Assembly (NCBI GenBank): GCA_017464565.1 | Contig: JAFTZH010000035.1 | Location: 1-64,000 of the forward strand | Reading direction: 5' to 3' | DNA length: 64,000 nt | Origin: Clostridia bacterium | Lineage (GTDB): Bacteria; Bacillota; Clostridia; Oscillospirales; CAG-272 | Shown here: positions 2,331 through 22,586 of the stretch, piece by piece | How the letters are laid out: each line of letters begins with the position of its first letter | Position numbering within the stretch: position 1 is the first letter of the stretch | Notes under the pieces: model-generated | The model's database searches: none | What the model was told of the DNA's origin: nothing | The model's input: the letters and a program-made list of their open reading frames with translations, nothing else | Program-made: the position numbers and the translations under genes

Positions 2331-3881
2331 TTATTGAACGGTAAGGTCTATAAAGGTGAAGGTAATATTGTTCTCCGTCGGGGTCAGCTTTTTAGCCTCG
2401 AACACGTTGTCACCTTCTTTAAGAGCGCTGACAGGTACGGCAAAACACTTGAATTGATTTTCCTCACCTATTCGGTCGGGATATCTCACCTCGTAAGCCG
2501 CCTCGTAATCCGTCGGCTCCGTGCAGACTCCGTTTACCTTTACGGCAAACTCAACCTCCGTTACATCGGACGAGGCTTCAAGTCTGAGCAATCCGTACTT
2601 CGATTTCCAGCCGCCCTTGGGAGCCGCCATATCGAATTTGAAGGTAAAGCCGTTATTATCGTTGCCGAGCGAAACTCTTGACAAAGAAAAAGAGGCAAGC
2701 AGATGATTGTAGTGTATACCGTGGAAATAATGCTGTCCCGCGGACTCCAAAAATTCGGCGTCCTTAAGATTTTTCATTATCTCAAACGGAACCTCATATC
2801 CTACCTTGGTCTCGGGCGGATATTGCCAATTTCGATAGAACGGCAGGTTAAACAGTGAAAGTCCGTCGGCACCGTGAGCGTACGCCGTATACGCCGACGT
2901 GTAAAACTGCTCGGGCGACGTATACCTGTATACTTGATTTCCCCCTACCCTGTACGAAGTAGCCTGGCTAAGCATAGCGTATACCAAGGTTTCGGGGTGT
3001 TTTTTCTTGGTATTGCCAAGCAAATGATACTCCTGTCTGGTAAAATAATAATCCCAGAATATTATGAACTCTACTCCCGCGGAGCAAAACGCGTCAATAT
3101 CGAAGCCGAGGTCGGCGTACTCGTTGTCCTCAAGAGGAAGAGTTATTCCGAAATAATATTTTTTACCCGTTTTCGCTGATTTTGCGTCAAGAGCCGCCTT
3201 GACCTTCTCCGCGAACTCTTTCATAATCCGAACTCTCTGCGTCTCGGTGGTAGTATTGAGGTTGAAATATGCGGGCGCTCTCATAAAGTCGAGAAGTATT
3301 CCGTCGATATCGTAGTTTTCGATAAGCTCGTAAATCATATTGAGCTTATATTCTCTTACCGCCTCGTACTGAAAATCAAGCATATTGGCAGCGGCGCCAA
3401 GCTGATTCTGCGCCTGACCTACACGGTACTGAGGATTTTTCTGCCAGAACTTGGATATCCACATTACCTTTGCCTTCGTGGGATCGTCCCCGATATTCAG
3501 GTTGTGAAGGTCGTTCATACGATAGCTGAGGAAGTAAAGCTTCCCTTCCTCGTGAGTCTTATCAAGCTGTATCTGAATGAAATCGTTTCCTTCTTTAGCG
3601 TAATTAAGGAAGCCGTAAATTCTGTCGGTTCCGCCGAACTCGTTATAGAACCAATCGAGATGCTCCGAAACGGGAAGCACCTTTGAGGGATACCACGGCA
3701 CCATACCGTATATCTCGTTTACGAAAACGTCAAAGCCCGCGTCTGCAGCCTCGGTAACCGCCCCGTCAAGCATCGCCTTGGTAAGTACCTGACTTCTCGT
3801 GGGATTATTCTTGTTTATGCAAGACAAAACGTGTCCCGGGTCGTTAAAATAAAATAATGATTTATTTTCTTCAAGCTTCAA
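2331..3881 (-). CDS. TIM-barrel glycoside-hydrolase-like protein, paralogue lacking a signal peptide
   Basis: 516 residues, very similar (roughly three quarters or more identical by eye) to its upstream neighbour at 4029-5765. It starts exactly where that neighbour's export signal and linker end. The middle carries DIDGILLDFMRAPAYFN, which resembles the beta-strand signature of GHL10-type hydrolase-like TIM barrels; the last ~100 residues look like a beta-sandwich (VNG ... LKEGDNVFE). The start is a TTG at 3881 with an independent CAGGAG 9 nt upstream, so this looks like a designed cytoplasmic start rather than a simple truncation. A 118-bp block (3243-3360) is identical at DNA level to 4941-5058. 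Function is unproven; family assignment is by motif resemblance only. A pseudogene seems unlikely because the frame is intact throughout. Confidence 0.8.
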   Translation of the reverse strand: MKLEENKSLFYFNDPGHVLSCINKNNPTRSQVLTKAMLDGAVTEAADAGFDVFVNEIYGMVPWYPSKVLPVSEHLDWFYNEFGGTDRIYGFLNYAKEGNDFIQIQLDKTHEEGKLYFLSYRMNDLHNLNIGDDPTKAKVMWISKFWQKNPQYRVGQAQNQLGAAANMLDFQYEAVREYKLNMIYELIENYDIDGILLDFMRAPAYFNLNTTTETQRVRIMKEFAEKVKAALDAKSAKTGKKYYFGITLPLEDNEYADLGFDIDAFCSAGVEFIIFWDYYFTRQEYHLLGNTKKKHPETLVYAMLSQATSYRVGGNQVYRYTSPEQFYTSAYTAYAHGADGLSLFNLPFYRNWQYPPETKVGYEVPFEIMKNLKDAEFLESAGQHYFHGIHYNHLLASFSLSRVSLGNDNNGFTFKFDMAAPKGGWKSKYGLLRLEASSDVTEVEFAVKVNGVCTEPTDYEAAYEVRYPDRIGEENQFKCFAVPVSALKEGDNVFEAKKLTPTENNITFTFIDLTVQ

Positions 3882-4028: not shown

Positions 4029-5763
4029 TTACTGAATAGTAAGGTCTATAAATGTAAAAGTTATATTGCTCGACGTAGACGTATTTTTCGTAACGTTGAA
4101 AACGTTGTCTCCGTTTTCAAGCAAATATATCGGTACCTCATAGCACTTGAATTGCTTTTCATCACCTATAAGGTCGGGATATTTCACCTCGTAAGCATCC
4201 TTATATTCGGTTGCCGCCACGGTAACTCCGTTTACCTTTACGGTAAAGTCAACCGCCGATACGTCCGAAGAAGCCTCAAGCCTCAGTATTCCGTACTCCG
4301 AGGTCCAACCGCCCTTCGGAGCCGTCATATCAAAGGTAAAGTTGAAGCTCTTGTTGGAGTTAGTCAATACTATTCTTGACAAAGAGAACTCGGCGTTCAG
4401 ATGATTATAGTGTATACCGTGGAAGTAATGCTGTCCCGCAGATTCCAAGAATTCGGTATTTTTCAAATTGTTTACTATATCAAACGGAACCTCGTACCCT
4501 ACGTCCGTGCCGGGTGAATACTGCCAATTTCGGTAGAACGGCAGATTGAACATAGAAATTCCGTCGGCGCCGTGAGCGTAAGCCGTATACGCGCACGTAT
4601 ACCACTGCTCCGCCGTCGTATATCTGTAGACCTGATCTCCGCCTACCTTATACGATGTTGCCTGACTTACCATAGCGTAAGCCAAAACCTCGGGATGCTC
4701 GCTCTTTACCTCTTCGAGAAGGTCGTATTCCTGTCTTGTAAAGTAATAATCCCAGAATATAAAGAGGTCTACGCCTGCCTGGCAAAACGCGTCGATATTG
4801 AATCCAAGGTCAACGTACTCGTTATCCTCAAGAGGAAGAACAACGCCGAAATAATACTCCTTGCCCGTCTCCGCCGATTTAGCGTCAAGGGCAAGCTTTA
4901 CCTTTGCCGCGAAGTCCTTCATAATGAGAACTCTCTGCGACTCGGTGGTAGTATTGAGGTTGAAATATGCGGGCGCTCTCATAAAGTCGAGAAGTATTCC
5001 GTCGATATCGTAGTTTTCGATAAGCTCGTAAATCATATTGAGCTTATATTCTCTTACCTCCGCATACTGAAAATCAAGCATATTGGCAGCGGCGCCAAGC
5101 TGATTCTGCGCCTGACCTATACGGTACTGCGGATTTTTCTGCCAGAACTCCGATATCCACTGAATTGCCGCCTGATTCGGGTTGTCTCCGATACTCAGAT
5201 TGTGAAGGTCGTTCATACGATAACTGAGAAAATAAAGCTTCCCTTCCTCGTGTGTTTTGTCAAGCTGTATCTGAACGAAATCGTTTCCGTTTTTAGCATA
5301 GGTAAGGAAACCGTAGCCGTCGTCCTTGCCTCCGAACTCGTTATAGAACCAATCGAGATGCTCCGAAACGGGAAGCACCTCGGAGGGATACCACGGCACC
5401 ATACCGTATATCTCGTTTACGAAAACGTCAAAGCCCGCGTCGGTAGCCTCGGTAACGGCTGCGTCAAGTCTCGTTTTGGTTACTATCTGACTTCTGCTCG
5501 GATTGTTTTCGTTGATACAAGAAAGTATGTGTCCGGGATCGTTAAAATAAAACAGCGATTTGTTTTCTTCAAGATTAACCTCTTCGGCGTCAGGAGTTTG
5601 GTCGCCGTTTGAGCTTGTGGTAGTCATCACTTCTACTCCGCCGCCCGACGAGGCGGAGCTTTCGTCTCCGCCGCTTTCGTCGGTCGCACAGGAACACAAA
5701 CCCATAAGAATCATAACCAACGCCAAAGACATTGAGATAAGTCTGTTTTTAAGGCTTGTTTTC
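4029..5763 (-). CDS. TIM-barrel glycoside-hydrolase-like lipoprotein
   Basis: 578 residues. Residues 1-27 form a lipoprotein signal with lipobox LCSC, then a Ser/Gly/Thr-rich tether to about residue 65, then the same barrel as its downstream paralogue (NEIYGMVPWYPS, YFLSYRMNDLHN, DIDGILLDFMRAP, FIFWDYYFTRQEY, YAHGADG) and a C-terminal beta-sandwich (about 455-578). It should be anchored on the outer face of the membrane. The barrel motifs recall hydrolase-like families of uncertain substrate; acidic residues in the DGILLD segment are candidate active-site residues, but this is not established. GGAGG sits about 10 nt before the ATG at 5765 (the coding segment reads down from that ATG). It follows the sugar-binding lipoprotein gene by only about 5 nt, so the two are probably co-translated and act on the same ligand. 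Confidence 0.82.
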
Positions 5764-5770
5764 ATTCGTT

Positions 5771-7249
5771 TTAAGCCTCCAGATAGTAGAGGTAAAGGTC
5801 TACGAGCTCTTCAAGCTTGTTCTCATAAAGCTGTTTATTGGAATCCCACCAGCTTGATATTCCGCTGTCTCCTCTTTCTATAAGTGTCTTAACGCCAATG
5901 TAAATGTTGTCGCTGTAGCTGTTTCCTATCTGCGACTGATAGAATGTAGCAAAGTCAAAGCGGACGGTGCTTCTTATAAGCGCTAACATCTCGGCATCCT
6001 CTGGAGCCTGAATCGCTTGTGTAGAAAGCACGGTCTCATAGTACTGGGGAATGAAATTGTTGTAGGTCGAATAGTTGAGATATTCAAATACTATACAAGC
6101 CTTTTCAACGTCAGCCGTAGCGGGAATATGAGCTATTTCCCATCTCAAGCTGTTCGTATAATAGCTTTCCTGAAGCTCGTCGTATTTAGGATAAGGAAGT
6201 ATTCCGTAGTCGATACCCGAATCACGAACCGTTCCGCTCGCGAGATACTCAACCGCCATACAGCCGAAGAGAGCCTGCGAGTTAGCGAAATATTCGATAA
6301 CCGACTCGTCGCTTGCGGTGTGGAATACGTGGTTGTTCTCCTTGAAGAATTTAAGATAAGTATCGAAAACGTCAACGAGGTGAGTATCGTAATATCCGCT
6401 TATTGACATATTACCCTCGTCGTCCTTGTCAACGATAGGAGTATCCGAGCCTACCATAGCACACATAGACTTATGGGTATTTCCTACAAAGCCGTATACG
6501 TCAACGTTATCGTACTGCTCGTTGTGGTTGGTATCCTCGTATATGGAGTTTACCATCTTCTCCATAATTTCGTAGGTCCAGCCGCCGTCGCGGACGAGCT
6601 GATAGATATCTTCGCCCTCTACGAAGCTCGAGAGCTGTTTCTCGTTATACATAGTCTTGTTGAAATACAAGCCCATCATCGTGGTAACCTGACTTACTAC
6701 GAACGAACCCGAAGCGGCGTAAAGCTTTCCGCCTATATCAACGGTATCGTTGATAAGCTCCTTGTCCCACCAGGGCTGGTCGAGGTGGAGGTATTCGGAA
6801 TCGTTGAAATTGTAGTACATACCCTCAAGAGCCATAGCCATCGTATAGTACGACTGACCGATAATAAGGTCGTAAGCCTCGTTCTGCGATGAAACTCTTA
6901 TCTCACTGGCAAACGCGTCTCTGCCCGCGCTTCTTCCCTCAAGAGGATTGAAGGAAAGAGTTACGCCGTATTTGTTCTGAACGTCGTTATTTCTGTTGTA
7001 TACAGCCTCGTTTATAACTGTTTTAGTATCCTCGGGGGTAACGTAATAGTCGTCAACCTGCGTCGTACAAAGCACTCTGTATTCCGCGCCCTCGTAATTG
7101 CGCTCAGCGAAGGTAATTCCTTCTTCCCCTGCTACCGTCGAAGCGGTAGTTTCGGCTGTCTCCTCTTCTTCCTTTTTACATCCGGAGAAAAGGAAGGCGG
7201 AGGTGAGCATAAGGATACAAAGCATAAGCGAAAGTATTCTTTTCATCAT
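5771..7249 (-). CDS. Extracellular solute-binding lipoprotein (ABC sugar-binding type)
   Basis: 492 residues. It begins with a lipoprotein signal and lipobox FSGC near residues 21-24, then an acidic KKEEEE tether. Features of family-1-type sugar-binding proteins are seen: YDLIIGQSYY near 130, QPWWDKE near 160, LYFNKTMYNE near 195 and GWTYEIMEKM near 220. It is homologous to the binding protein at 24716-26218 (shared PWW-K and FNK segments). Known role of the family: delivering an oligosaccharide to an ABC permease. No permease or ATPase gene is present in the window, so its partner is elsewhere or the protein has another ligand-capturing role. Two adjacent ATGs (7249, 7246) follow an AGGAGG; either could be used. 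Confidence 0.88.
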   Translation of the reverse strand: MMKRILSLMLCILMLTSAFLFSGCKKEEEETAETTASTVAGEEGITFAERNYEGAEYRVLCTTQVDDYYVTPEDTKTVINEAVYNRNNDVQNKYGVTLSFNPLEGRSAGRDAFASEIRVSSQNEAYDLIIGQSYYTMAMALEGMYYNFNDSEYLHLDQPWWDKELINDTVDIGGKLYAASGSFVVSQVTTMMGLYFNKTMYNEKQLSSFVEGEDIYQLVRDGGWTYEIMEKMVNSIYEDTNHNEQYDNVDVYGFVGNTHKSMCAMVGSDTPIVDKDDEGNMSISGYYDTHLVDVFDTYLKFFKENNHVFHTASDESVIEYFANSQALFGCMAVEYLASGTVRDSGIDYGILPYPKYDELQESYYTNSLRWEIAHIPATADVEKACIVFEYLNYSTYNNFIPQYYETVLSTQAIQAPEDAEMLALIRSTVRFDFATFYQSQIGNSYSDNIYIGVKTLIERGDSGISSWWDSNKQLYENKLEELVDLYLYYLEA

Positions 7250-7284
7250 AATTTTGCGCCTCCTTTGCGCGTTTTGGTAAAGGA

Positions 7285-8664
7285 TTACGCCTCTACTTTC
7301 TTTTTACAAATTACGCAAGCCATTCCCGCGCAAAGAACCACGAGAAGTATCATAGCTTCAACCGAGCCTCCGCATCCGCCCTTCTCTTCCTCCTCGGCAG
7401 CCGTAGTCGTAGCAGCGGCGGTCGTGGTCGCGGCGGTAGTCTCGTCGGGAGTTACGAGCTTGAGTATTTTATTCTTTGCTATAGTGGCTACCTTTTCAAC
7501 CGAGGTTTTGTCGGTCTGAAGGTCTATATCAGAGAGAGCCTTCGTGATAATTTCCTCTACCTTTGCCTTGGTCTCCGCGTCAAGAGTTGAGAGGTCAACA
7601 AGCTCGTTAATCATCTTCTTGCTGTCGGTCTTTGCGGCTTCGAGTTCTTCCTCTGCGGTAAGCTCGGCATTGGTCTTAAGAGCGTCTATCTTTCCCTTTG
7701 CCTCTGCAAGCAAATCGTAAGCCGCGCTGCCGGTAGCAGCGGTGTCAAGCTTGCCCTTGTACTCGGTGATTATAGCCTCAATCTGTGCCTTTTCAGTGTC
7801 TCTGTAATCGTCAAGCTTTACGTAGGTGTCAAGCGTGCTCTTGCTTGAGGAAATTATAGATGCAAGCTCGTCTGCGCTGACGTTTGCCTCTGTGGGTCTG
7901 GTTGCCTTGTATACGCTTACCTTACGGAAGTAGATATCAACGTCTGCGTCAGCGTCGGCAGCCATTACGGACGATTCCATTTTGAAACGGTTAATACCCG
8001 AGGGAACGTCAACCAAATTTGCCGTAGTGCCGTTTCCTTGGTGAATCTGTGTCTGCTCGTGAACCTTATTTCCGTCAACGTAGTATAAGAGCTTATTGTT
8101 GAGAGCATCAAATACTACCGATATGGTGTGATAAGTGGCAGTTGAACCTACCGAGAGAGTGGCTATCGTGGAACCGTGCGACATAAAGTAGTATCCACCG
8201 TTGCCGTCAGACTGTCTTGCGTTGTTTGTGGTAAGAGAACCGTCAGCCTTAATTACCATAAAGTAATACCACTTTCCGCTACCGTCGACCATTCCGACCT
8301 CAAAATGAGCGTCGTTCTTCAACTCGGCAAGCTTAAGGGTAATGCTGTAAACTATGCAGTTACCCGTAAGAGAGCCAAGCGTATTAAGGTCAAAGCCTAT
8401 GAGCTGGTCGTTAAGACGCTGAACGCGCATAGCCTGCGTGCCTCCGTCGTCAACGAGAGCAGTAGCGTCTCCGGAGGGAAGCCAACCGTTGTCTGTCGTG
8501 TTAATAACGCATTTTCCTCCGCCCGAGAGCGTTCCGCTGGTAATAGAAGTCATAGTCGTGAAATCAAGGGTTGCTACGTCTACGGGAGTATCGTCAGCGC
8601 TCGCGGGTATGCAAAGTGCGAGAATGAATATCAGTGTCAATACTAAAGATATTATCTTTTTCAT
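7285..8664 (-). CDS. Secreted LamG-like surface protein with helical stalk and Gly-Cys-Gly C-terminal anchor
   Basis: 459 residues. Layout: signal peptide (1-23, ending ASA), a predicted concanavalin/LamG-like beta-sandwich (about 27-240; YYVDGNKVHE is the typical Asp-Gly hairpin), a helical stalk rich in Ala, Glu, Lys and Asp (about 250-405), a Thr/Ala linker (about 408-425), then EEEEKGGCGGSV, a hydrophobic helix and KKKVEA. The sandwich matches the first sandwich of the upstream secreted protein (9007-11025), including the NRFK and VD(I/V) positions. The Cys motif plus helix plus Lys tail looks like a sorting or anchoring signal and recurs in 17925-19730. AAAGGAG precedes the ATG. The sandwich suggests carbohydrate binding, but this is unproven. 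Third gene of cassette A. Confidence 0.8.
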   Translation of the reverse strand: MKKIISLVLTLIFILALCIPASADDTPVDVATLDFTTMTSITSGTLSGGGKCVINTTDNGWLPSGDATALVDDGGTQAMRVQRLNDQLIGFDLNTLGSLTGNCIVYSITLKLAELKNDAHFEVGMVDGSGKWYYFMVIKADGSLTTNNARQSDGNGGYYFMSHGSTIATLSVGSTATYHTISVVFDALNNKLLYYVDGNKVHEQTQIHQGNGTTANLVDVPSGINRFKMESSVMAADADADVDIYFRKVSVYKATRPTEANVSADELASIISSSKSTLDTYVKLDDYRDTEKAQIEAIITEYKGKLDTAATGSAAYDLLAEAKGKIDALKTNAELTAEEELEAAKTDSKKMINELVDLSTLDAETKAKVEEIITKALSDIDLQTDKTSVEKVATIAKNKILKLVTPDETTAATTTAAATTTAAEEEEKGGCGGSVEAMILLVVLCAGMACVICKKKVEA

Positions 8665-8760: not shown

Positions 8761-8788
8761 GTCTCCTCCCTCCTGCGAGGGAGGAGAC
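8761..8788 (-). other. Strong intercistronic hairpin between peptide A and the anchored protein
   Basis: A perfect 12-bp GC-rich stem (8761-8772 with 8777-8788) and a CTGC loop. On the minus strand it is preceded by an A-tract but followed by TTAAAAATTA rather than a T-run. It may therefore be a partial terminator or an mRNA-stabilising 3' end for the upstream genes. On the plus strand it is followed by GGCTTTTTT, a textbook terminator form, although no plus-strand gene precedes it. Confidence 0.6.
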
Positions 8789-8806: not shown

Positions 8807-8989
8807 TTACCAAGCGTTGAAATCGTTGTCGCTTCCCGCACCCTCTTCGTATTCTGTAAGAGCGGGAGGAGGCGTGGTGGTTGCAACGGTGGTTGCTGTA
8901 GTCGCAGCCGGTTCGTCAGACGCCGCTATAATGTCAAGCGCGTCAAATATTTCAAGCTCTGCTTCGGGAAGAACGTAATATTTTTTCAT
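8807..8989 (-). CDS. Short two-block peptide A (YxxPE leader-like, C-terminal Trp)
   Basis: A 60-residue ORF with a strong AGGAGG about 8 nt before its ATG, 17 nt after the large secreted gene. It is not a classical signal peptide. Residues 5-24 fit Y-x2-P-E-x-E-x3-F-x3-D-[IV]-[IL]-x-A-S, and residues 45-60 fit E-Y-[DE]2-x3-S-x-N-x4-W. Both blocks align without gaps to peptide B (19765-19905). Residues 25-44 are a Thr/Ala/Pro linker like those of the neighbouring surface proteins. The layout suggests a leader plus a core, or a sorting tag plus a functional tail. YxxPE recalls the YxxP motif in lasso-peptide leaders, but no lasso cyclase, protease or RRE gene is in the window. Function unknown; coding status is supported by the ribosome binding site and by conservation with its paralogue. 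Confidence 0.8.
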   Translation of the reverse strand: MKKYYVLPEAELEIFDALDIIAASDEPAATTATTVATTTPPPALTEYEEGAGSDNDFNAW

Positions 8990-9006
8990 TTTTCTATCCT
9001 CCTAAA

Positions 9007-11025
9007 TTACTTTATGAGCGTGCTTACGTACGCGCCGTTGGTGTAAGTTATTACGAAGCTGTTAGCGTCGGGGGTCTTTACGCCGTCCTGCGAGTAGCTA
9101 TACGCGTTTACGGTAAAGGTTACCGTTCCCGTAGCGGGAATATCGTATATAGTAACTGCGAAAGCGTATTTTCCGCCAAGCTCTTTAGCCTCGATGCTCT
9201 CTTCTATTCCGTGCTCACCGTAAGCGGTAAGAACTCTGTATACCTCGGTAACCGAAAATTCCTTCTTCTCCTTCGCTCCGTTGACTACCGTTCCCACGGT
9301 ATCGTTAGCGTCAGCGTACTCTACTGCTGAATATTCACAGGAGATATCAAATCCTACCGAGCTGTATTCGAGAGAATCAACCGCTCCTACGAAACGTACA
9401 GCCTGCATACCATCGGAAACGGCAGACTCCTGAACGCCTCTGTAAAGAGTTTCGATAGGCTCCGCGTTTTCGGGAGCAACGTCGTTGTGAACGTTTATGG
9501 ACTTAAGATTTATGTCAACGAGAGCGTTGTGCTTCTGAACCTCGCCCTTGACTCTGTAAACGTCCCAAGGAAGATCGGCTACGGCACCGCCGGTACCCTG
9601 AAGCGCCTGATATCTCGTGTATTTTGCGACTCCGTCAATATAGAAGGTCTCTACGTTACTGTCGCAGTCATAAGCTACCGAAAGAGTATGGTACTGACTG
9701 TCGTTAATATTGCCTATCTTAACACCGCCGTCAATCGTCTTATAGGTGGTAGCACTGTCGGTAACTATCTTATAGTCAACGTAGACGTCTCCGCCCGCAA
9801 CGACTCCGAAGGAATAATATACCTTTGTATTGCCGTTGCCTACCAAGGACATAGCGTAAGAGCCGCCCTCTTCTATCGCGTTGTACTTAATGGTGTTGCT
9901 GTAAACGAACTGCGAGGAGATATGAGCGGCAAGCTCCGTGAGCTGCCAGGAGGTAATGGTGGGATACGCGTTTGTACGCTTGATATTGAGAACCTGAGTC
10001 TCACCGTCGGTCAGAAGCGAACTCTCAACTCCAAGCCAATCGTTATCCGCGGTAACTCCTCCGCTCATAGTCATATTCGTAAAGTTCTCGCATACTTTGG
10101 TTCCGCTTATATCTGACAGCGAACCGAACTCAACGGTAGTATCGGGATAATCGGAATCTATGTAAATACGTACGTTCTTAAAGTTTACGTCTACTACCGC
10201 GTCAGCCTGAAGGGCTTCATATTTAAAGCGGTTGATGTTTGCGGGAACAACAACGTCTTTTACGGATGCGGTCGTTCCTTCGTTTCCGCCGTCGTTTACC
10301 TTCTGAGCAATGCCCTCTCCGCTGAACTTAAGGTCTCCGTCAATATATACTTCCTGCTTGTTCTCGGCAGCGTCGTATACTACCGATATGGTGTAGTACT
10401 TACCATCCTCAAGAGTAGCAACGACGTCTCCGTCCACAAGACTGTAATACTTCGTCGTCTTATCTCTCGTCTGCGTAGCGTTTACAACGACGGTTCCGTC
10501 ATCAAGGATTCCCGCGTAATGCCACTTGCTTGCGCTGTCTACCATTGCCCAAGAGAACATACCGCCGTCCTCTATCTGATTTACTTTCAGATTCATCTCC
10601 ATAACGATGCGGTCGCCCGAGGTATATTTCAGGTTAGCAATATCAAATCCTTCGAGAGATTTGTCGTTACGGAGCAGGTTAAGTACGGTTACTCCGCCGT
10701 CATCCTTGAAGGACGACGCGCCGTCAAGCCAGTTGCTTCCGTTAGTAATGGTAGCGCTTGCCTTGTTAGCCTGCGTCGTAAACGCCGACGTGGAGGACAA
10801 GGTTTTTCCCGTCATTTTACTGAAATCAACGTTGATGATTTCTCTGCCGCATTCAAGCGCGTTAACATCATCGGTTGGAGCTTCCGGGACCACCGGTTCC
10901 GCCGTTGCGCTGGCAACGGGAGCCATAGTAGCCTGACCTGAATTTGAAGCAGACTCCGCCGACATTGGCAAGGCTATGGCAAGAAGCATAACCGCCGATA
11001 AAATAATTGCAATCAGTTTTTTCAT
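9007..11025 (-). CDS. Large secreted protein: two LamG-like sandwiches plus a C-terminal beta domain
   Basis: 672 residues. Signal peptide (1-23, cleavage near MSA), a short Ala/Pro linker, LamG-like sandwich 1 (about 58-275, with YIDGDLKFSG) and sandwich 2 (about 285-510, with FYIDGVAKYT), then a C-terminal domain (about 535-672) with AVRFVGAVDSLEYSSVGFDI and YDIPATGTVTFTV. That last domain is also found in the locus B protein (19928-22543; GIRFISVIND..., FDIPAGTDVEFTV). There is no anchor at the C-terminus, so it is predicted to be released or held by partners. No catalytic motif is evident, and ligand binding is an inference from the fold. AGGAGG precedes the ATG. First gene of cassette A and probably co-transcribed with the GH172 gene upstream. 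Confidence 0.8.
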   Translation of the reverse strand: MKKLIAIILSAVMLLAIALPMSAESASNSGQATMAPVASATAEPVVPEAPTDDVNALECGREIINVDFSKMTGKTLSSTSAFTTQANKASATITNGSNWLDGASSFKDDGGVTVLNLLRNDKSLEGFDIANLKYTSGDRIVMEMNLKVNQIEDGGMFSWAMVDSASKWHYAGILDDGTVVVNATQTRDKTTKYYSLVDGDVVATLEDGKYYTISVVYDAAENKQEVYIDGDLKFSGEGIAQKVNDGGNEGTTASVKDVVVPANINRFKYEALQADAVVDVNFKNVRIYIDSDYPDTTVEFGSLSDISGTKVCENFTNMTMSGGVTADNDWLGVESSLLTDGETQVLNIKRTNAYPTITSWQLTELAAHISSQFVYSNTIKYNAIEEGGSYAMSLVGNGNTKVYYSFGVVAGGDVYVDYKIVTDSATTYKTIDGGVKIGNINDSQYHTLSVAYDCDSNVETFYIDGVAKYTRYQALQGTGGAVADLPWDVYRVKGEVQKHNALVDINLKSINVHNDVAPENAEPIETLYRGVQESAVSDGMQAVRFVGAVDSLEYSSVGFDISCEYSAVEYADANDTVGTVVNGAKEKKEFSVTEVYRVLTAYGEHGIEESIEAKELGGKYAFAVTIYDIPATGTVTFTVNAYSYSQDGVKTPDANSFVITYTNGAYVSTLIK

Positions 11026-17924: not shown

Positions 17925-19730
17925 TTATTGTTCCTTTTTCTTTTTTGCAACTCCGAAAGCAAGCGCGGAGGATGCCACAGCGCCTATTACGAGAACGGTA
18001 CCCGTAACCGAGCTTCCGCAGCCCTTCTTCTCTTCTTCAGCCGCAGTGGTCGCAGCCGCCGTAGTAGAAGCAGTGGTAGCGGCGGTAGTGGTAGCCGCGG
18101 TGGTAGTTGCCTCAGTGGTCGTCGAAGAGGATGCGTTCGTGTCTATTGCGTCGGCAGATACGTTCTGAACGAGAGCGCCTGCCTCTGCGGGCCATACGAG
18201 AGACTCGTAAGAAGCGAGGTCATCGGTTGCCACGATCTGAATGGAAGCTACCTCGATAGAAGAAGCGTATCCAAACATAATACCCATATATCTGTCGGCG
18301 GTCGCGAGAGTATTCGCGGTCTTTGAAAGAATAGCCGAATTATCTCCGCACTCAAACTTGAGCGAACAGCAGTAACGCTCGAGAGCCGAATAGGTCATAG
18401 TAACCCACTCGCCCGACTGATAATCGGTAACTATCTTAGCCCAAGCGGTTTCGTCAAGAGCGGTTGCGTTATCAACGGTACCATTGTAACGAACGCAGGT
18501 ATTCTTCGTGGTAGTAACCGTTCCCTTTTCGTCGTTCATCTCCGCGGACTGAACGAACGCGAGATAGCTTGAGCTATCGCTCGTAAAGCGGAACTTAATC
18601 TTAACCTCATAGTTCTGAATGTTCTTCGGGACAGCGTTTGCGGTAAAGAGCATATAAGCTCCGCCTCCGCTCGTTACCTTAAGAACTCCATTTTCAACGA
18701 CGTACTGCGAGGGAGTGGAGTTGTTGGTAAGGAAGTAACCCGTAGAATCAATATCGGTAACCTTGGAGAAATCCATATTGTGAAGGACGTAGCCTGCCTT
18801 GTACTTGGTATCAACGCTGTCGGTGTATTCAAGCGTCTTCTCCGCGGGCATTACACGGTTGGATATTTCAGCATCTGAAACGTAAGCTCCGTAAGTTACT
18901 TCAACCTTTTTGATAAGCGCGCTGGATTCTATGGTCTTGGTATTGGTTCTGATGAACATACCGAAGTAACCGCCGTCGGTTTCAAGTCCCGTCGTGTGCG
19001 TATAAACGACCTCTGCGTCTGCCGTGCTTACGACTACCTTTTTACAAACGTTGTTTTCAACTACGAACGTATACTTTCCAAGCGAGCCCTTCTCACCGTC
19101 GGTCGTACCCTTGAGAGCACTGTACATATCAGTCTCACTGCCCGATTCAACCGTCCAGCCCGTATTTAGCACGAGCTTATTCTGGGTATTTGAGTCAAAG
19201 CGGAAGTTTACTCCGTCAGGGCAAGAATTTGCGGTGTTTGCTTCTATACTCGTAAGAGTAGCGTCGCCATCCTCAAAATTAGAGGTTGCGGTATCACCGT
19301 ACAGCCAACCGAAATAGAGATAATCCGAAATGCTGGAGGACATCGAAATGCTTATACAGTAGTTGCTCTGATTTTTATAAGCGTCGGTCGTAAGAACGAT
19401 ACCGGCGTAGTAGCGGTATACTGCGGAGATATCAAGACCTTCACTCGTAAGGTTGTAATAAAGGTCGCCTTCTCCGGGTGCTTTGGGAAGTCCCGTGCTG
19501 GTATCAAGATCTCTTGAGAAACGGTACCAGATAGGCATATATCCGGTATAGGTGTTAAGAAGAATGTCAAACTTTTTAGCCTCGGTGTACTCGTTCTGCG
19601 TGTATAACTCGGTAAAGTCAACGCTCTCAAGAACGTCTCCGTTCTCGTAGGTAAGAGCGTTTACGGCAATTGCCGAGAACGCCGTGAGAACGAACACGAG
19701 GGCGAGAAGCATAGATAATAATTTTTTCAT
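17925..19730 (-). CDS. Secreted surface protein with two beta-sandwich domains and Gly-Cys-Gly C-terminal anchor
   Basis: 601 residues. Signal peptide (1-25), domain 1 (about 33-290), domain 2 (about 310-510), a Thr/Ala linker (about 540-565), then EEEKKGCGSSV, a hydrophobic helix and KKKKEQ. Domain 1 is clearly homologous to the repeats of the upstream protein 19928-22543: both have an AVYRYYAG / AYRYTQG strand, FGW, and KVVVS...YTHTTGL...GGYFGMF. The C-terminal anchor matches that of 7285-8664 in motif and spacing despite unrelated helix residues. Fold and carbohydrate binding are inferred; no catalytic motif is seen. GAGG precedes the ATG. Third gene of cassette B. Confidence 0.8.
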   Translation of the reverse strand: MKKLLSMLLALVFVLTAFSAIAVNALTYENGDVLESVDFTELYTQNEYTEAKKFDILLNTYTGYMPIWYRFSRDLDTSTGLPKAPGEGDLYYNLTSEGLDISAVYRYYAGIVLTTDAYKNQSNYCISISMSSSISDYLYFGWLYGDTATSNFEDGDATLTSIEANTANSCPDGVNFRFDSNTQNKLVLNTGWTVESGSETDMYSALKGTTDGEKGSLGKYTFVVENNVCKKVVVSTADAEVVYTHTTGLETDGGYFGMFIRTNTKTIESSALIKKVEVTYGAYVSDAEISNRVMPAEKTLEYTDSVDTKYKAGYVLHNMDFSKVTDIDSTGYFLTNNSTPSQYVVENGVLKVTSGGGAYMLFTANAVPKNIQNYEVKIKFRFTSDSSSYLAFVQSAEMNDEKGTVTTTKNTCVRYNGTVDNATALDETAWAKIVTDYQSGEWVTMTYSALERYCCSLKFECGDNSAILSKTANTLATADRYMGIMFGYASSIEVASIQIVATDDLASYESLVWPAEAGALVQNVSADAIDTNASSSTTTEATTTAATTTAATTASTTAAATTAAEEEKKGCGSSVTGTVLVIGAVASSALAFGVAKKKKEQ

Positions 19731-19764: not shown

Positions 19765-19905
19765 TTACCATCTCATTCCGCTGTTTGCCGAAACATTAGA
19801 ATCGTCGTATTCGACAGAAGCAAGCTCAAGAGACGCGAGAAGCACGTCGCTCGATGAAAAACTGATTTTTTCAAGCTCGGGAGCAATATATTTAATCTTT
19901 TTCAT
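19765..19905 (-). CDS. Short two-block peptide B (YxxPE leader-like, C-terminal Trp)
   Basis: A 46-residue ORF, start ATG at 19905 with AAAGGAG about 9 nt upstream, in the 22-nt gap after the large secreted gene; stop TAA at 19765. Residues 6-25 fit the same 20-position block as peptide A (Y-x2-P-E-x-E-x3-F-x3-D-[IV]-[IL]-x-A-S). Residues 31-46 fit the same C-terminal block (E-Y-D-D-x3-S-x-N-x4-W). Only five residues separate the blocks, against 20 in peptide A. Both peptides begin MKK and end in Trp. The size would miss many gene-calling cut-offs. Function unknown; a precursor peptide, a sorting tag or a small partner of the flanking surface proteins are all open. Confidence 0.78.
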   Translation of the reverse strand: MKKIKYIAPELEKISFSSSDVLLASLELASVEYDDSNVSANSGMRW

Positions 19906-19927: not shown

Positions 19928-22543
19928 TTAATAGGGTATGTAGAGCGTCGAGAAGAGTACGAGGTGGTCGGAGTTGTGCGTGGTAGAGGTTCCGTCCGTA
20001 AGTGCCAGAGTTCCGTAAACTTCTCTCGTGCTGAACTCAACGTCAGACGACATAATCATATTGTCAAATGCTCCGCCCGAGCAGGTCTGAATATATCTGC
20101 CCGTGTAAATAAGGAGAGATACGCTCTCGTCAAAGCAAGCTTCCATAGCGGCGTACTGATGATTGTTATAATCACCGAGGAGCACGAAGCTTGTATTTGA
20201 ACGCTTGGATATCATATTATCGTATATAGAGGAAAGCTGTGTCTCATAGCTGTTGCTCTCGGTGTGAGTAACGTAGAAATCAACGAGACTTCCGTCTATA
20301 TTAATAACCGCGTGGAGCGCGCATCTGTTCTCAACGTCACCGCTGGTATTGGGAATCGCAACGGTCTCGGTCGAGGTAATGGGATATTTGGAGATAATAG
20401 CGTTACCGAAGGTACCGCCGTCATACTCTCTTCCCGAAGCAAAATAGTAATAATCGTATCCGAGCTTGTCGGCAATAAGCTTAACGGTATCCTGATTGCC
20501 GTTTCTGCCCGTATTCACGTCAACCTCCTGAAGACCGACTATCTCGGCACCCGTCGCCTTGATATCAGCGGCTATGTAGGAGTAATCGTAAGCGTTGGCA
20601 CCCGTCGAATCACCGTAGGTGTAACCGCCCGTAAGCATACCCGACTTTATATTGTAAGTAGCAACCTTAACGCTGTTCTCCGCCTCGAAGGTGTAGGAGG
20701 TGAAGGATATCTTCTTACCCGTCGTATCTATAACGAAGGGTGTAACGGTAAACTCTACGTCGGTTCCCGCGGGAATGTCAAAGAGCGTATCGCAGTAGAA
20801 GTATTCGCCGTTGAAATCAGCGGGGGTGTAGCTTACCGAGGAAGCGTCGGTATAGCCCTTGATAGAGCTGTATACGTACTTGGAAGTATTGCTGAAGTTC
20901 TTGCTGGACGCGCCGCCGTCAATGCTTGCGACAACGTCATAACCCATAGCGTCGTAATTATCAATGTCGTTTATTACGGAAATGAAGCGGATTCCGTAAG
21001 TAGATGTGGTAGAAAGTGTCTTCTGATGTCCTACCATTTTAACGTTGTTGTCGATGACGCTTATCGACTTGATAATCATTGCATTAGTACTTGCTTTAGC
21101 AGTTACTACTCTGTTATACATACCGAAGTTACCTGCGGATGCATCAAGACCTGTAGCGTGGGTGTACTTAACAGTAACACCACCACAGCTTACAACCACC
21201 TCGGAACACTTGTTATCAACAACTCTGAATTCCATGGTGGTCTCACCAGGGAGAGTTACGTTGTCAACAACGAGGTCCATATTAGCGCGAAGCTGTACTG
21301 CATCTCCGCTCGCAATAGTCCAACCGTCTATAGTAAGAGCGGAATCAACCACCTTAAAGAATGTCTTGGGGTGAGAATTTTCAAACAAAGTGCTTCCTGT
21401 TGCATAGAAGCTATCATCTGCAGGCAATCCCCAACCAAAGTATATTACGTTTGTATAATCATTGTCGAGATATGCTCTCATATCGACCTTGATAGCGTAA
21501 TCGGAATGCTTTGTAAGATCGTAGTTGCTCGTAGAAAGACGTACACCTTGTGTATATCTGTAGGCAGACTTAACAAGGAGACCTTCATCTGTGTATCCTG
21601 CGGTAGCAAAGTTAGTGTTATCTGTACCTGTTGCAAACTGGAAATCAATAGTGGTAGCACCGGGAGCTTTAGCGGCAACTGCCTGTGCATACTTTGCCTT
21701 GAAATCAACAGAGCCAACAGTAGTACCCGAAGAATTCTTAACAGTAATAGAAGAAACCTTCATATAAGGGCAATCTGCTAAGTTTGTCGAGTGTGCAAAA
21801 ATGTAAAATTCTCCGCTTGAAGCGTCAAAGGAAAGAATATTAGCATTCGCGTTAAACACCTGTGTCGTGCTACCGCTAGTAACTGTTACCGTGCTCAAAT
21901 AGTTATTAGCAACAGCAAACGAGAAGGTTGAATCCTGCTTAGCCTCGTTTGCAGTATCCATCGCTGTATAAAGCGCAATTCTGTTATCAGGAGAATACGA
22001 AGTATTGTTAAGATGGAATCTCGCATTTCCAGGCGTGCGGAAGTTGGTCCAGTAGTAAGCCAAACCGTTTGTATCGTTTTGAGTTCCCGTAATGGTTTTA
22101 TCTTCAGGATTTTGTCCCCAGCCAAACCAAATGTACGAAGTGCTACGAGCAAAGTCCTTACGACACGAGATTATATCTGCCTGCATGCTGATCTCAACGG
22201 TATAACTAGAAAGTTCCGAAAGATCAACAAAATCTCCCGCTTTGATAGCAAATCCCGAAAAATGTCGATATGCGGGTGCCATCACAAGTCCGTCAGCCGT
22301 AAGTGCGTGTACCTGAGGCTGAGTCCAGTCGGAAGAACTGTTTACATTTGACCACTGGTAGTCGATAGGTGTAACGCCGAGGTCTACCGCAGATGCTGTC
22401 TTGGTAAGATCCGCTGTGTAGAGAACGTTATTACCCTCCGACGTGTATTCAGCAGCCGTCGTTTGTTCTGCGCTGACGGGCATTATGACGAGACACGACA
22501 TAATCATCAGCGCGCTGAAAATGATTGATAAAATCTTTTTCAT
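19928..22543 (-). CDS. Secreted multidomain protein with C-terminal endonuclease/exonuclease/phosphatase domain
   Basis: About 871 residues. Signal peptide (1-26), two beta-sandwich repeats (about 38-275 and 285-505; both with AYR(H/Y) and FGWG strands), a beta domain (about 515-630; GIRFISVIND, FDIPAGTDVEFTV) shared with 9007-11025, and an EEP-fold domain (about 635-871). The EEP active-site set is complete: TYNIKSG, LQEVD, YVTHTE, LGDYNN and HNSDH. EEP enzymes hydrolyse phosphodiesters or phosphomonoesters in DNA, phospholipids or sugar phosphates using Mg2+. Closest EEP relatives are the three tandem proteins at 27446-30276 (shared RNGNQDT loop). The start is set at 22543 because AAAGGA lies 8 nt upstream; an ATG at 22561 has no ribosome binding site. 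First gene of cassette B. Confidence 0.85.
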   Translation of the reverse strand: MKKILSIIFSALMIMSCLVIMPVSAEQTTAAEYTSEGNNVLYTADLTKTASAVDLGVTPIDYQWSNVNSSSDWTQPQVHALTADGLVMAPAYRHFSGFAIKAGDFVDLSELSSYTVEISMQADIISCRKDFARSTSYIWFGWGQNPEDKTITGTQNDTNGLAYYWTNFRTPGNARFHLNNTSYSPDNRIALYTAMDTANEAKQDSTFSFAVANNYLSTVTVTSGSTTQVFNANANILSFDASSGEFYIFAHSTNLADCPYMKVSSITVKNSSGTTVGSVDFKAKYAQAVAAKAPGATTIDFQFATGTDNTNFATAGYTDEGLLVKSAYRYTQGVRLSTSNYDLTKHSDYAIKVDMRAYLDNDYTNVIYFGWGLPADDSFYATGSTLFENSHPKTFFKVVDSALTIDGWTIASGDAVQLRANMDLVVDNVTLPGETTMEFRVVDNKCSEVVVSCGGVTVKYTHATGLDASAGNFGMYNRVVTAKASTNAMIIKSISVIDNNVKMVGHQKTLSTTSTYGIRFISVINDIDNYDAMGYDVVASIDGGASSKNFSNTSKYVYSSIKGYTDASSVSYTPADFNGEYFYCDTLFDIPAGTDVEFTVTPFVIDTTGKKISFTSYTFEAENSVKVATYNIKSGMLTGGYTYGDSTGANAYDYSYIAADIKATGAEIVGLQEVDVNTGRNGNQDTVKLIADKLGYDYYYFASGREYDGGTFGNAIISKYPITSTETVAIPNTSGDVENRCALHAVINIDGSLVDFYVTHTESNSYETQLSSIYDNMISKRSNTSFVLLGDYNNHQYAAMEACFDESVSLLIYTGRYIQTCSGGAFDNMIMSSDVEFSTREVYGTLALTDGTSTTHNSDHLVLFSTLYIPY

Positions 22544-22586
22544 TGTGTTTTTTCCTTTCATAATTTTTTATTAAGGTCAACTTTAT

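Follow-up and report, generated by a model that had tools for sequence, protein, structure and literature searches.

The closest described counterpart of the genes studied here is the system for linear polyphosphorylated peptides (LPPs), encoded in the lpp clusters of Paenibacillus. According to its description (PMC13381572), LppB residues N33 and D70 hold the YxxP motif, LppS, with the catalytic residues S29/H68/D93, cuts after FET, and LppK phosphorylates Ser3 of LppA; the roles of LPPs and paeninodins are stated there as unknown. Lasso peptides, of the paeninodin type and others, likewise have a B1-like RRE and a YxxP-type leader, together with an HprK-like kinase in the paeninodin branch. 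In PEP-CTERM/exosortase and GlyGly-CTERM/rhombosortase (PMC1569441, PMC3237569) one central machine also serves many dispersed surface-protein targets, but there the protein itself contains the tag, whereas here a gene of its own would encode it and the machine would consist of an RRE, a kinase and a peptidase. In the literature we found the LPP system and no report of micropeptides paired with secreted proteins.

We describe a large, overlooked family of micropeptides in gut Clostridia, two of which are encoded in the window, that is, in the whole stretch of 64,000 nucleotides analysed. We consider it somewhat probable that they are leader-core precursors of one central LPP-like machine, dispersed and each co-made with a secreted protein. 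The features shared with LPP (PMC13381572) are a discrete RRE with the YxxP-binding Asn and Asp, an HprK-like kinase and an archaeal-type signal-peptidase-like leader peptidase with Ser-His-Asp, a precursor with an N-terminal YxxP block, a Ser near the expected cut and a highly variable C-terminus, and the position of some loci among polysaccharide genes. The LPP leader reads YxxPxVLxHQxIxFETxxS and the one here PE...F...D[VI][IL]xxS; YxxP and Ser are common to both, HQ and FET are missing from the one here, and the distance from Tyr to Ser is 19 here and 18 in LPP. LPP precursors number one to three per cluster, and a pairing with secreted proteins is not described in the portion of the paper used here, whereas the present precursors are dispersed, one behind each secreted-protein gene. 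In addition, the genome of the window (G000) has no match to the NTP transferase model PF14907, and no exporter or other transporter lies by its machine. By analogy the micropeptide system works like the LPP system; however, because motif, gene set and cluster layout differ, we do not count it as an LPP member.

Two micropeptide genes and their family

The features around the two genes are listed by position.

7285-8664, minus strand: gene following micropeptide 1, for a secreted protein that carries a C-terminal anchor of its own
8761-8788, minus strand: strong hairpin in the interval between micropeptide 1 and the gene that follows it (-26.2 kcal/mol, z -6.3)
8807-8989, minus strand: micropeptide 1, 60 residues
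8918-8989, minus strand: leader-like block of micropeptide 1, residues 1-24 (Y5, P8, F15, D19, S24)
8918-8920, minus strand: codon of Ser24 (Y+19), which the analogy to LppA Ser3 marks as a predicted kinase target
8998-9003, minus strand: Shine-Dalgarno AGGAGG of micropeptide 1, right after the stop of partner 1, read from the sequence
9007-11025, minus strand: partner 1, 672 residues, signal peptide, no anchor found
9043-9408: copy of the domain shared by partners, without Pfam match
17925-19730, minus strand: gene following micropeptide 2, for a secreted protein with an anchor like that of the 7285-8664 product
19765-19905, minus strand: micropeptide 2, 46 residues, leader-like block residues 1-25 (Y6, P9, F16, D20, S25)
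19831-19833, minus strand: codon of Ser25, predicted kinase target by position
19928-22561, minus strand: partner 2, secreted, start probably 22543 (871 residues), stop 22 bp before micropeptide 2
20681-21001: copy of the shared domain, without Pfam match

Judged by their sequence, both micropeptide ORFs are genuine genes of the minus strand, each with an ATG start and a good Shine-Dalgarno sequence. A plus-strand reading of the two regions was rejected, as nothing comparable is encoded there; the first-pass annotation had the coordinates of both ORFs right, and both lie on the minus strand. Beyond its leader-like block micropeptide 1 has a Thr/Ala/Pro linker, followed by an acidic tail with a terminal Trp. 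Neither micropeptide matches any Pfam or NCBIfam family, and a phage origin was rejected after a search with a 1 kb stretch gave no match. Between the two, 8 of the N-terminal 20 positions are identical (shuffle p 0.0004) and 5 of the last 16 (shuffle p 0.003), which the first-pass annotation had taken for two conserved blocks of one family. The N-terminal block recurs widely and far above chance; the Trp-terminated block is not characteristic of the family, since Trp occurs in the tail of 59 of 108 members, no fixed tail motif is common to the family, and the E-Y-[DE]2...W match is kept in close orthologues of micropeptide 2 only.

The signature of the N-terminal block is Y-x2-P-x6-[FL]-x3-D-[VI]-[IL]-x2-S. 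The spacing from Y to D is exactly 14 in 106 of the 108 members read in context and in all 41 members of an independent class-wide set; the D itself is kept in 103/108 and 41/41, and the Ser at D+5 in 101/108 and 41/41, respectively. The 108 members have acidic tails, with a net charge of -4.2 on average, and in 95/108 an aromatic residue lies near the end. The further homologues in Clostridia that the first-pass annotation had anticipated were retrieved with a profile of the N-terminal block: at E<=0.05 there are 10 matches in the genome of the window and up to 25 per genome in its relatives, while at E<=0.001 there are 8 in the former and 48 of 293 genomes are positive class-wide. The combined match sets suggest about nine real copies in the genome of the window. 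Among 14 close pairs dN/dS is 0.05-0.31 in 13 and 0.50 in one, and for micropeptide 2 and its orthologues in L165 and L209 it is 0.18-0.22; because of these low values the family ORFs look translated and constrained.

A variant leader, YEKAxAEVxxFDNSDVITTSG, adjoins kinase and RRE genes in Faecalibacterium and Blautia (L294 10001-15024, L259, L306). In L294 a radical SAM/SPASM enzyme is encoded there too, as is the peptidase, and this company suggests a different product for that leader.

The RRE, kinase and peptidase genes

The genome of the window contains one discrete RRE and one kinase relative, in adjacent genes, after which comes the peptidase gene.

G000, contig C15, 9771-11234 (locus L142): central three-gene machine of HprK-fold kinase, discrete RRE and Ser-His-Asp peptidase

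No precursor gene lies beside this machine; precursor genes are found in or near the cluster in L069, L078, L262, L300 and L301. Some relatives have both an NTP transferase and an MsbA-like exporter. Mining based on clusters would miss dispersed RiPP-type precursors, because their genes are far from those of the enzymes. The named close relatives of the machine come mostly from metagenome-assembled genomes of herbivore-gut Clostridia, and the isolates among them are Blautia schinkii and Faecalibacterium gallinarum.

The RRE of L142, 87 residues long, matches PF05402. The RRE profile picks up TbiB1 and TfuB1, as well as two chains of the PqqD family (9x90 and 9x8z) that, going by their residue numbering, we take to be PbaB1 and LppB. 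Mapped through the two PDB chains with an offset of 18, which also places PbaB1 G42/Q79, LppB N33 and D70 fall on positions 35 and 72 of the RRE alignment, where Asn is present in 11/14 and Asp in 14/14 sequences. On this alignment the discrete RRE keeps the Asn and Asp of the predicted YxxP contact, a feature of LPP; paeninodin RREs, in contrast, carry Gly/Gln. The kinase has no Pfam match and only weak matches to HprK-related NCBIfam models. It contains a Walker A motif, GDKP and GTPWxGK, and the AlphaFold2 model of a kinase relative (L242, pLDDT 94.8) matches HprK/P and PEPCK; on the strength of the model we assign it as HprK-like, as in LPP. In the peptidase, S32, H71 and D87 are invariant in 13 sequences, and TIGR02228 and SipW models match, both below their cut-offs. 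By sequence it is an archaeal-type signal peptidase I with a Ser-His-Asp triad, the third feature shared with the LPP enzymes.

The distribution of the machine follows that of the micropeptides. Among near-complete relatives the RRE is found in 19/20 family-positive and 10/47 family-negative genomes (p 1.3e-8), with the same counts for the kinase, and class-wide in 45/48 against 59/245 (p 2e-20), p values that ignore shared ancestry; a comparison restricted to the genus shows a weak association (11/18 vs 3/12, p 0.07). Kinase and RRE went undetected in eight family-positive genomes, seven of them less than 90% complete and the eighth, G032, 98% complete. In G032 the leaders are variants reading KELLMNGDS or KEFLMNG[EG]S (L074, L240), and its micropeptides may use diverged machinery. 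Secreted-protein gene, micropeptide, kinase and RRE occur in one locus in L262, L300 and L069, and in L374 a secreted-protein gene, a micropeptide and a kinase-like gene follow in succession.

By analogy with LPP, then, the micropeptides are very probably substrates of the RRE, kinase and peptidase. The first-pass annotation's view of them as leader/core peptides whose YxxP motif an RRE would recognise is supported by a family that tracks a discrete RRE with conserved YxxP-contact residues, along with a kinase of HprK type and a peptidase with Ser, His and Asp. Its lasso comparison fared otherwise: nothing encoded in the genome of the window matches PF13471, the lasso leader peptidase model, which exceeds its cut-off in 2/59 relatives, and lasso membership was rejected.

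Secreted partners encoded upstream

In 98 of the 108 cases a gene on the same strand ends between -4 and 43 bp upstream of the micropeptide, with a median gap of 16 bp. By a simple hydropathy rule, a heuristic of our own that leaves 20 partners without a call, at least 78 of these 98 partners have a signal peptide, compared with 82 of 789 background genes (about 10%). The pairing with a secreted-protein gene was repeated class-wide (31/41 vs 18/266 in the background, Fisher p 2e-21). An anchor heuristic, also our own, called 66 partners free and 12 anchored, against 44 free and 110 anchored among other nearby exported proteins (p 1.7e-16); many of the 12 'anchored' calls look false when read, although a few partners do have anchors (L179, L217). 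The partners are large and varied, and in the sample scanned few Pfam domains were matched, namely a pectate-lyase-like adhesive domain, GLUG, Ig-like and endo/exonuclease domains, with no known cell-wall anchor domain in that sample. These data support a micropeptide ORF that is, as read from gene order and sequence, the cistron immediately 3' of a secreted protein mostly without a recognisable anchor. The link with secreted proteins drawn by the first-pass annotation is thereby borne out in a sharper form, and an LPP-like machine appears tied, gene by gene and across many Clostridia families, to such proteins, a pairing that gives it a concrete, testable role in surface-protein handling.

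The same arrangement bears on whether the micropeptides could be ordinary RiPP products of this machine, for instance signals or antimicrobials, with gene position reflecting shared regulation or export timing. The machinery is of RiPP type, similar leaders occur in compact Faecalibacterium and Blautia clusters, some with radical SAM enzymes, and the varied tails look like diversifying cores. However, a family that reaches 25 copies in one genome, almost every copy lying 5-40 bp behind the gene of a large secreted protein, would have an unusual cluster layout, no immunity gene caught our eye, and the partners are preferentially unanchored; we regard this explanation as rather unlikely.

A C-terminal domain of partner 1 (residues about 540-661), without Pfam match, is common to 53 of the 98 partners, and partner 2 carries it together with a C-terminal endonuclease/exonuclease/phosphatase domain. 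There are 11 copies in the genome of the window and 29 in G009, and none in most genomes of the same genus that lack micropeptides. When the search starts from the shared domain, the micropeptide is usually the next gene. However, the domain is not required for micropeptides, because G010 has micropeptides without a copy of it. The predicted structure of the partner C-terminal domain is of low confidence (pLDDT 62) and was set aside.

The likeness of tails correlates as well with that of the partner C-termini (rho 0.30) as with that of the rest of the partner (rho 0.29), and in G010 five near-identical micropeptides with one identical tail adjoin different partners; for both reasons pairwise specificity between tail and partner is unsupported, and the G010 case also suits ordinary RiPP products. 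A mature peptide joined covalently to its partner, for instance at the C-terminus, as a tag supplied in trans would fit the strict one-behind-one gene order. It also has an example in L177, where a secreted protein (6387-7973) ends in DCVYRSWESLFGE, resembling the tail of a nearby micropeptide, DCGYTSWGNLFGE; the two align with a score of 53, and reversed tails score 46 at best. This is one fused case picked from many comparisons, however; no joining enzyme was identified and the partners have no conserved C-terminal acceptor motif, so that we consider a covalent tag quite improbable. A general fusion of tails to secreted proteins was rejected on account of this single case.

The genes next after the two micropeptides encode secreted proteins with anchors of their own: a Thr-rich linker, GGCGGS, a hydrophobic stretch and a Lys-rich end in the product of 7285-8664, and KGCGSS, a hydrophobic stretch and KKKK in that of 17925-19730. 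Neither copy matches the NCBIfam CTERM models. An anchor of this type, with an acidic or Thr-rich linker, [KG]GC[GKS]S, a hydrophobic stretch and a Lys/Arg-rich end, recurs in about 20 further proteins of L062-L235, and its invariant Cys is reminiscent of MYXO-CTERM. Elsewhere in the window, 2331-3881 and 4029-5765 encode adjacent, very similar secreted or lipoprotein-like proteins, by eye a recent tandem duplication, and the product of 4029-5765 has a weak match to the GHL10 glycosyl-hydrolase family.

A possible route to the cell surface

The gene of the secreted protein and that of the peptide stand in tandem, each with its own ribosome site. The YxxP block would then be bound by the RRE, as the motif, the RRE residues and the co-occurrence suggest, the kinase would phosphorylate the conserved Ser of D-[VI]-[IL]-x2-S, and the peptidase would cut off the leader just before this Ser, so that a tail of some 20-30 residues, acidic and aromatic, would remain. 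Binding, phosphorylation and trimming are proposed because of the analogy with LPP. In the last and weakest step, which we put forward tentatively, the tail might be exported, stay attached to the cell surface by way of the modified Ser, and help to retain or organise the co-encoded secreted protein; the unanchored partners, the replacement of micropeptides by lipoproteins and the Thr-rich linker of micropeptide 1 led us to it.

The replacement is seen behind proteins with the shared domain, where small lipoproteins with a low-complexity linker and an acidic tail sometimes take the place of the micropeptide (L394, L406, L403). In the genome of L403 (G016) neither a family member above the strong cut-off nor a kinase was detected. 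It is conceivable, if still doubtful, that each unanchored secreted protein is held in trans by its own phosphorylated, trimmed and surface-fixed peptide tail, and if so, a lipid anchor would let the small lipoproteins, whose tails are similar, serve this purpose too. The adaptor role for surface proteins suggested by the first-pass annotation is possible in this form.

The micropeptides themselves have no signal peptide, and tandem cistrons would give matched dosage, as might be expected of a cytoplasmic regulator, sensor or secretion chaperone of the upstream protein that the RRE, kinase and peptidase switch or destroy. Such a role seems to us a poor candidate, as the Thr-rich linker of micropeptide 1 resembles those of surface proteins in the window, exported small lipoproteins fill the same slot, and ABC exporters are present in 21/68 kinase loci.

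The lipoproteins in the slot behind secreted-protein genes, where they alternate with micropeptides, are 73-102 residues long (L230 3252-3485, L170 3551-3772, L233 3232-3480, L394, L403 and L406), and their tails are short, acidic, often aromatic and often Trp-bearing.
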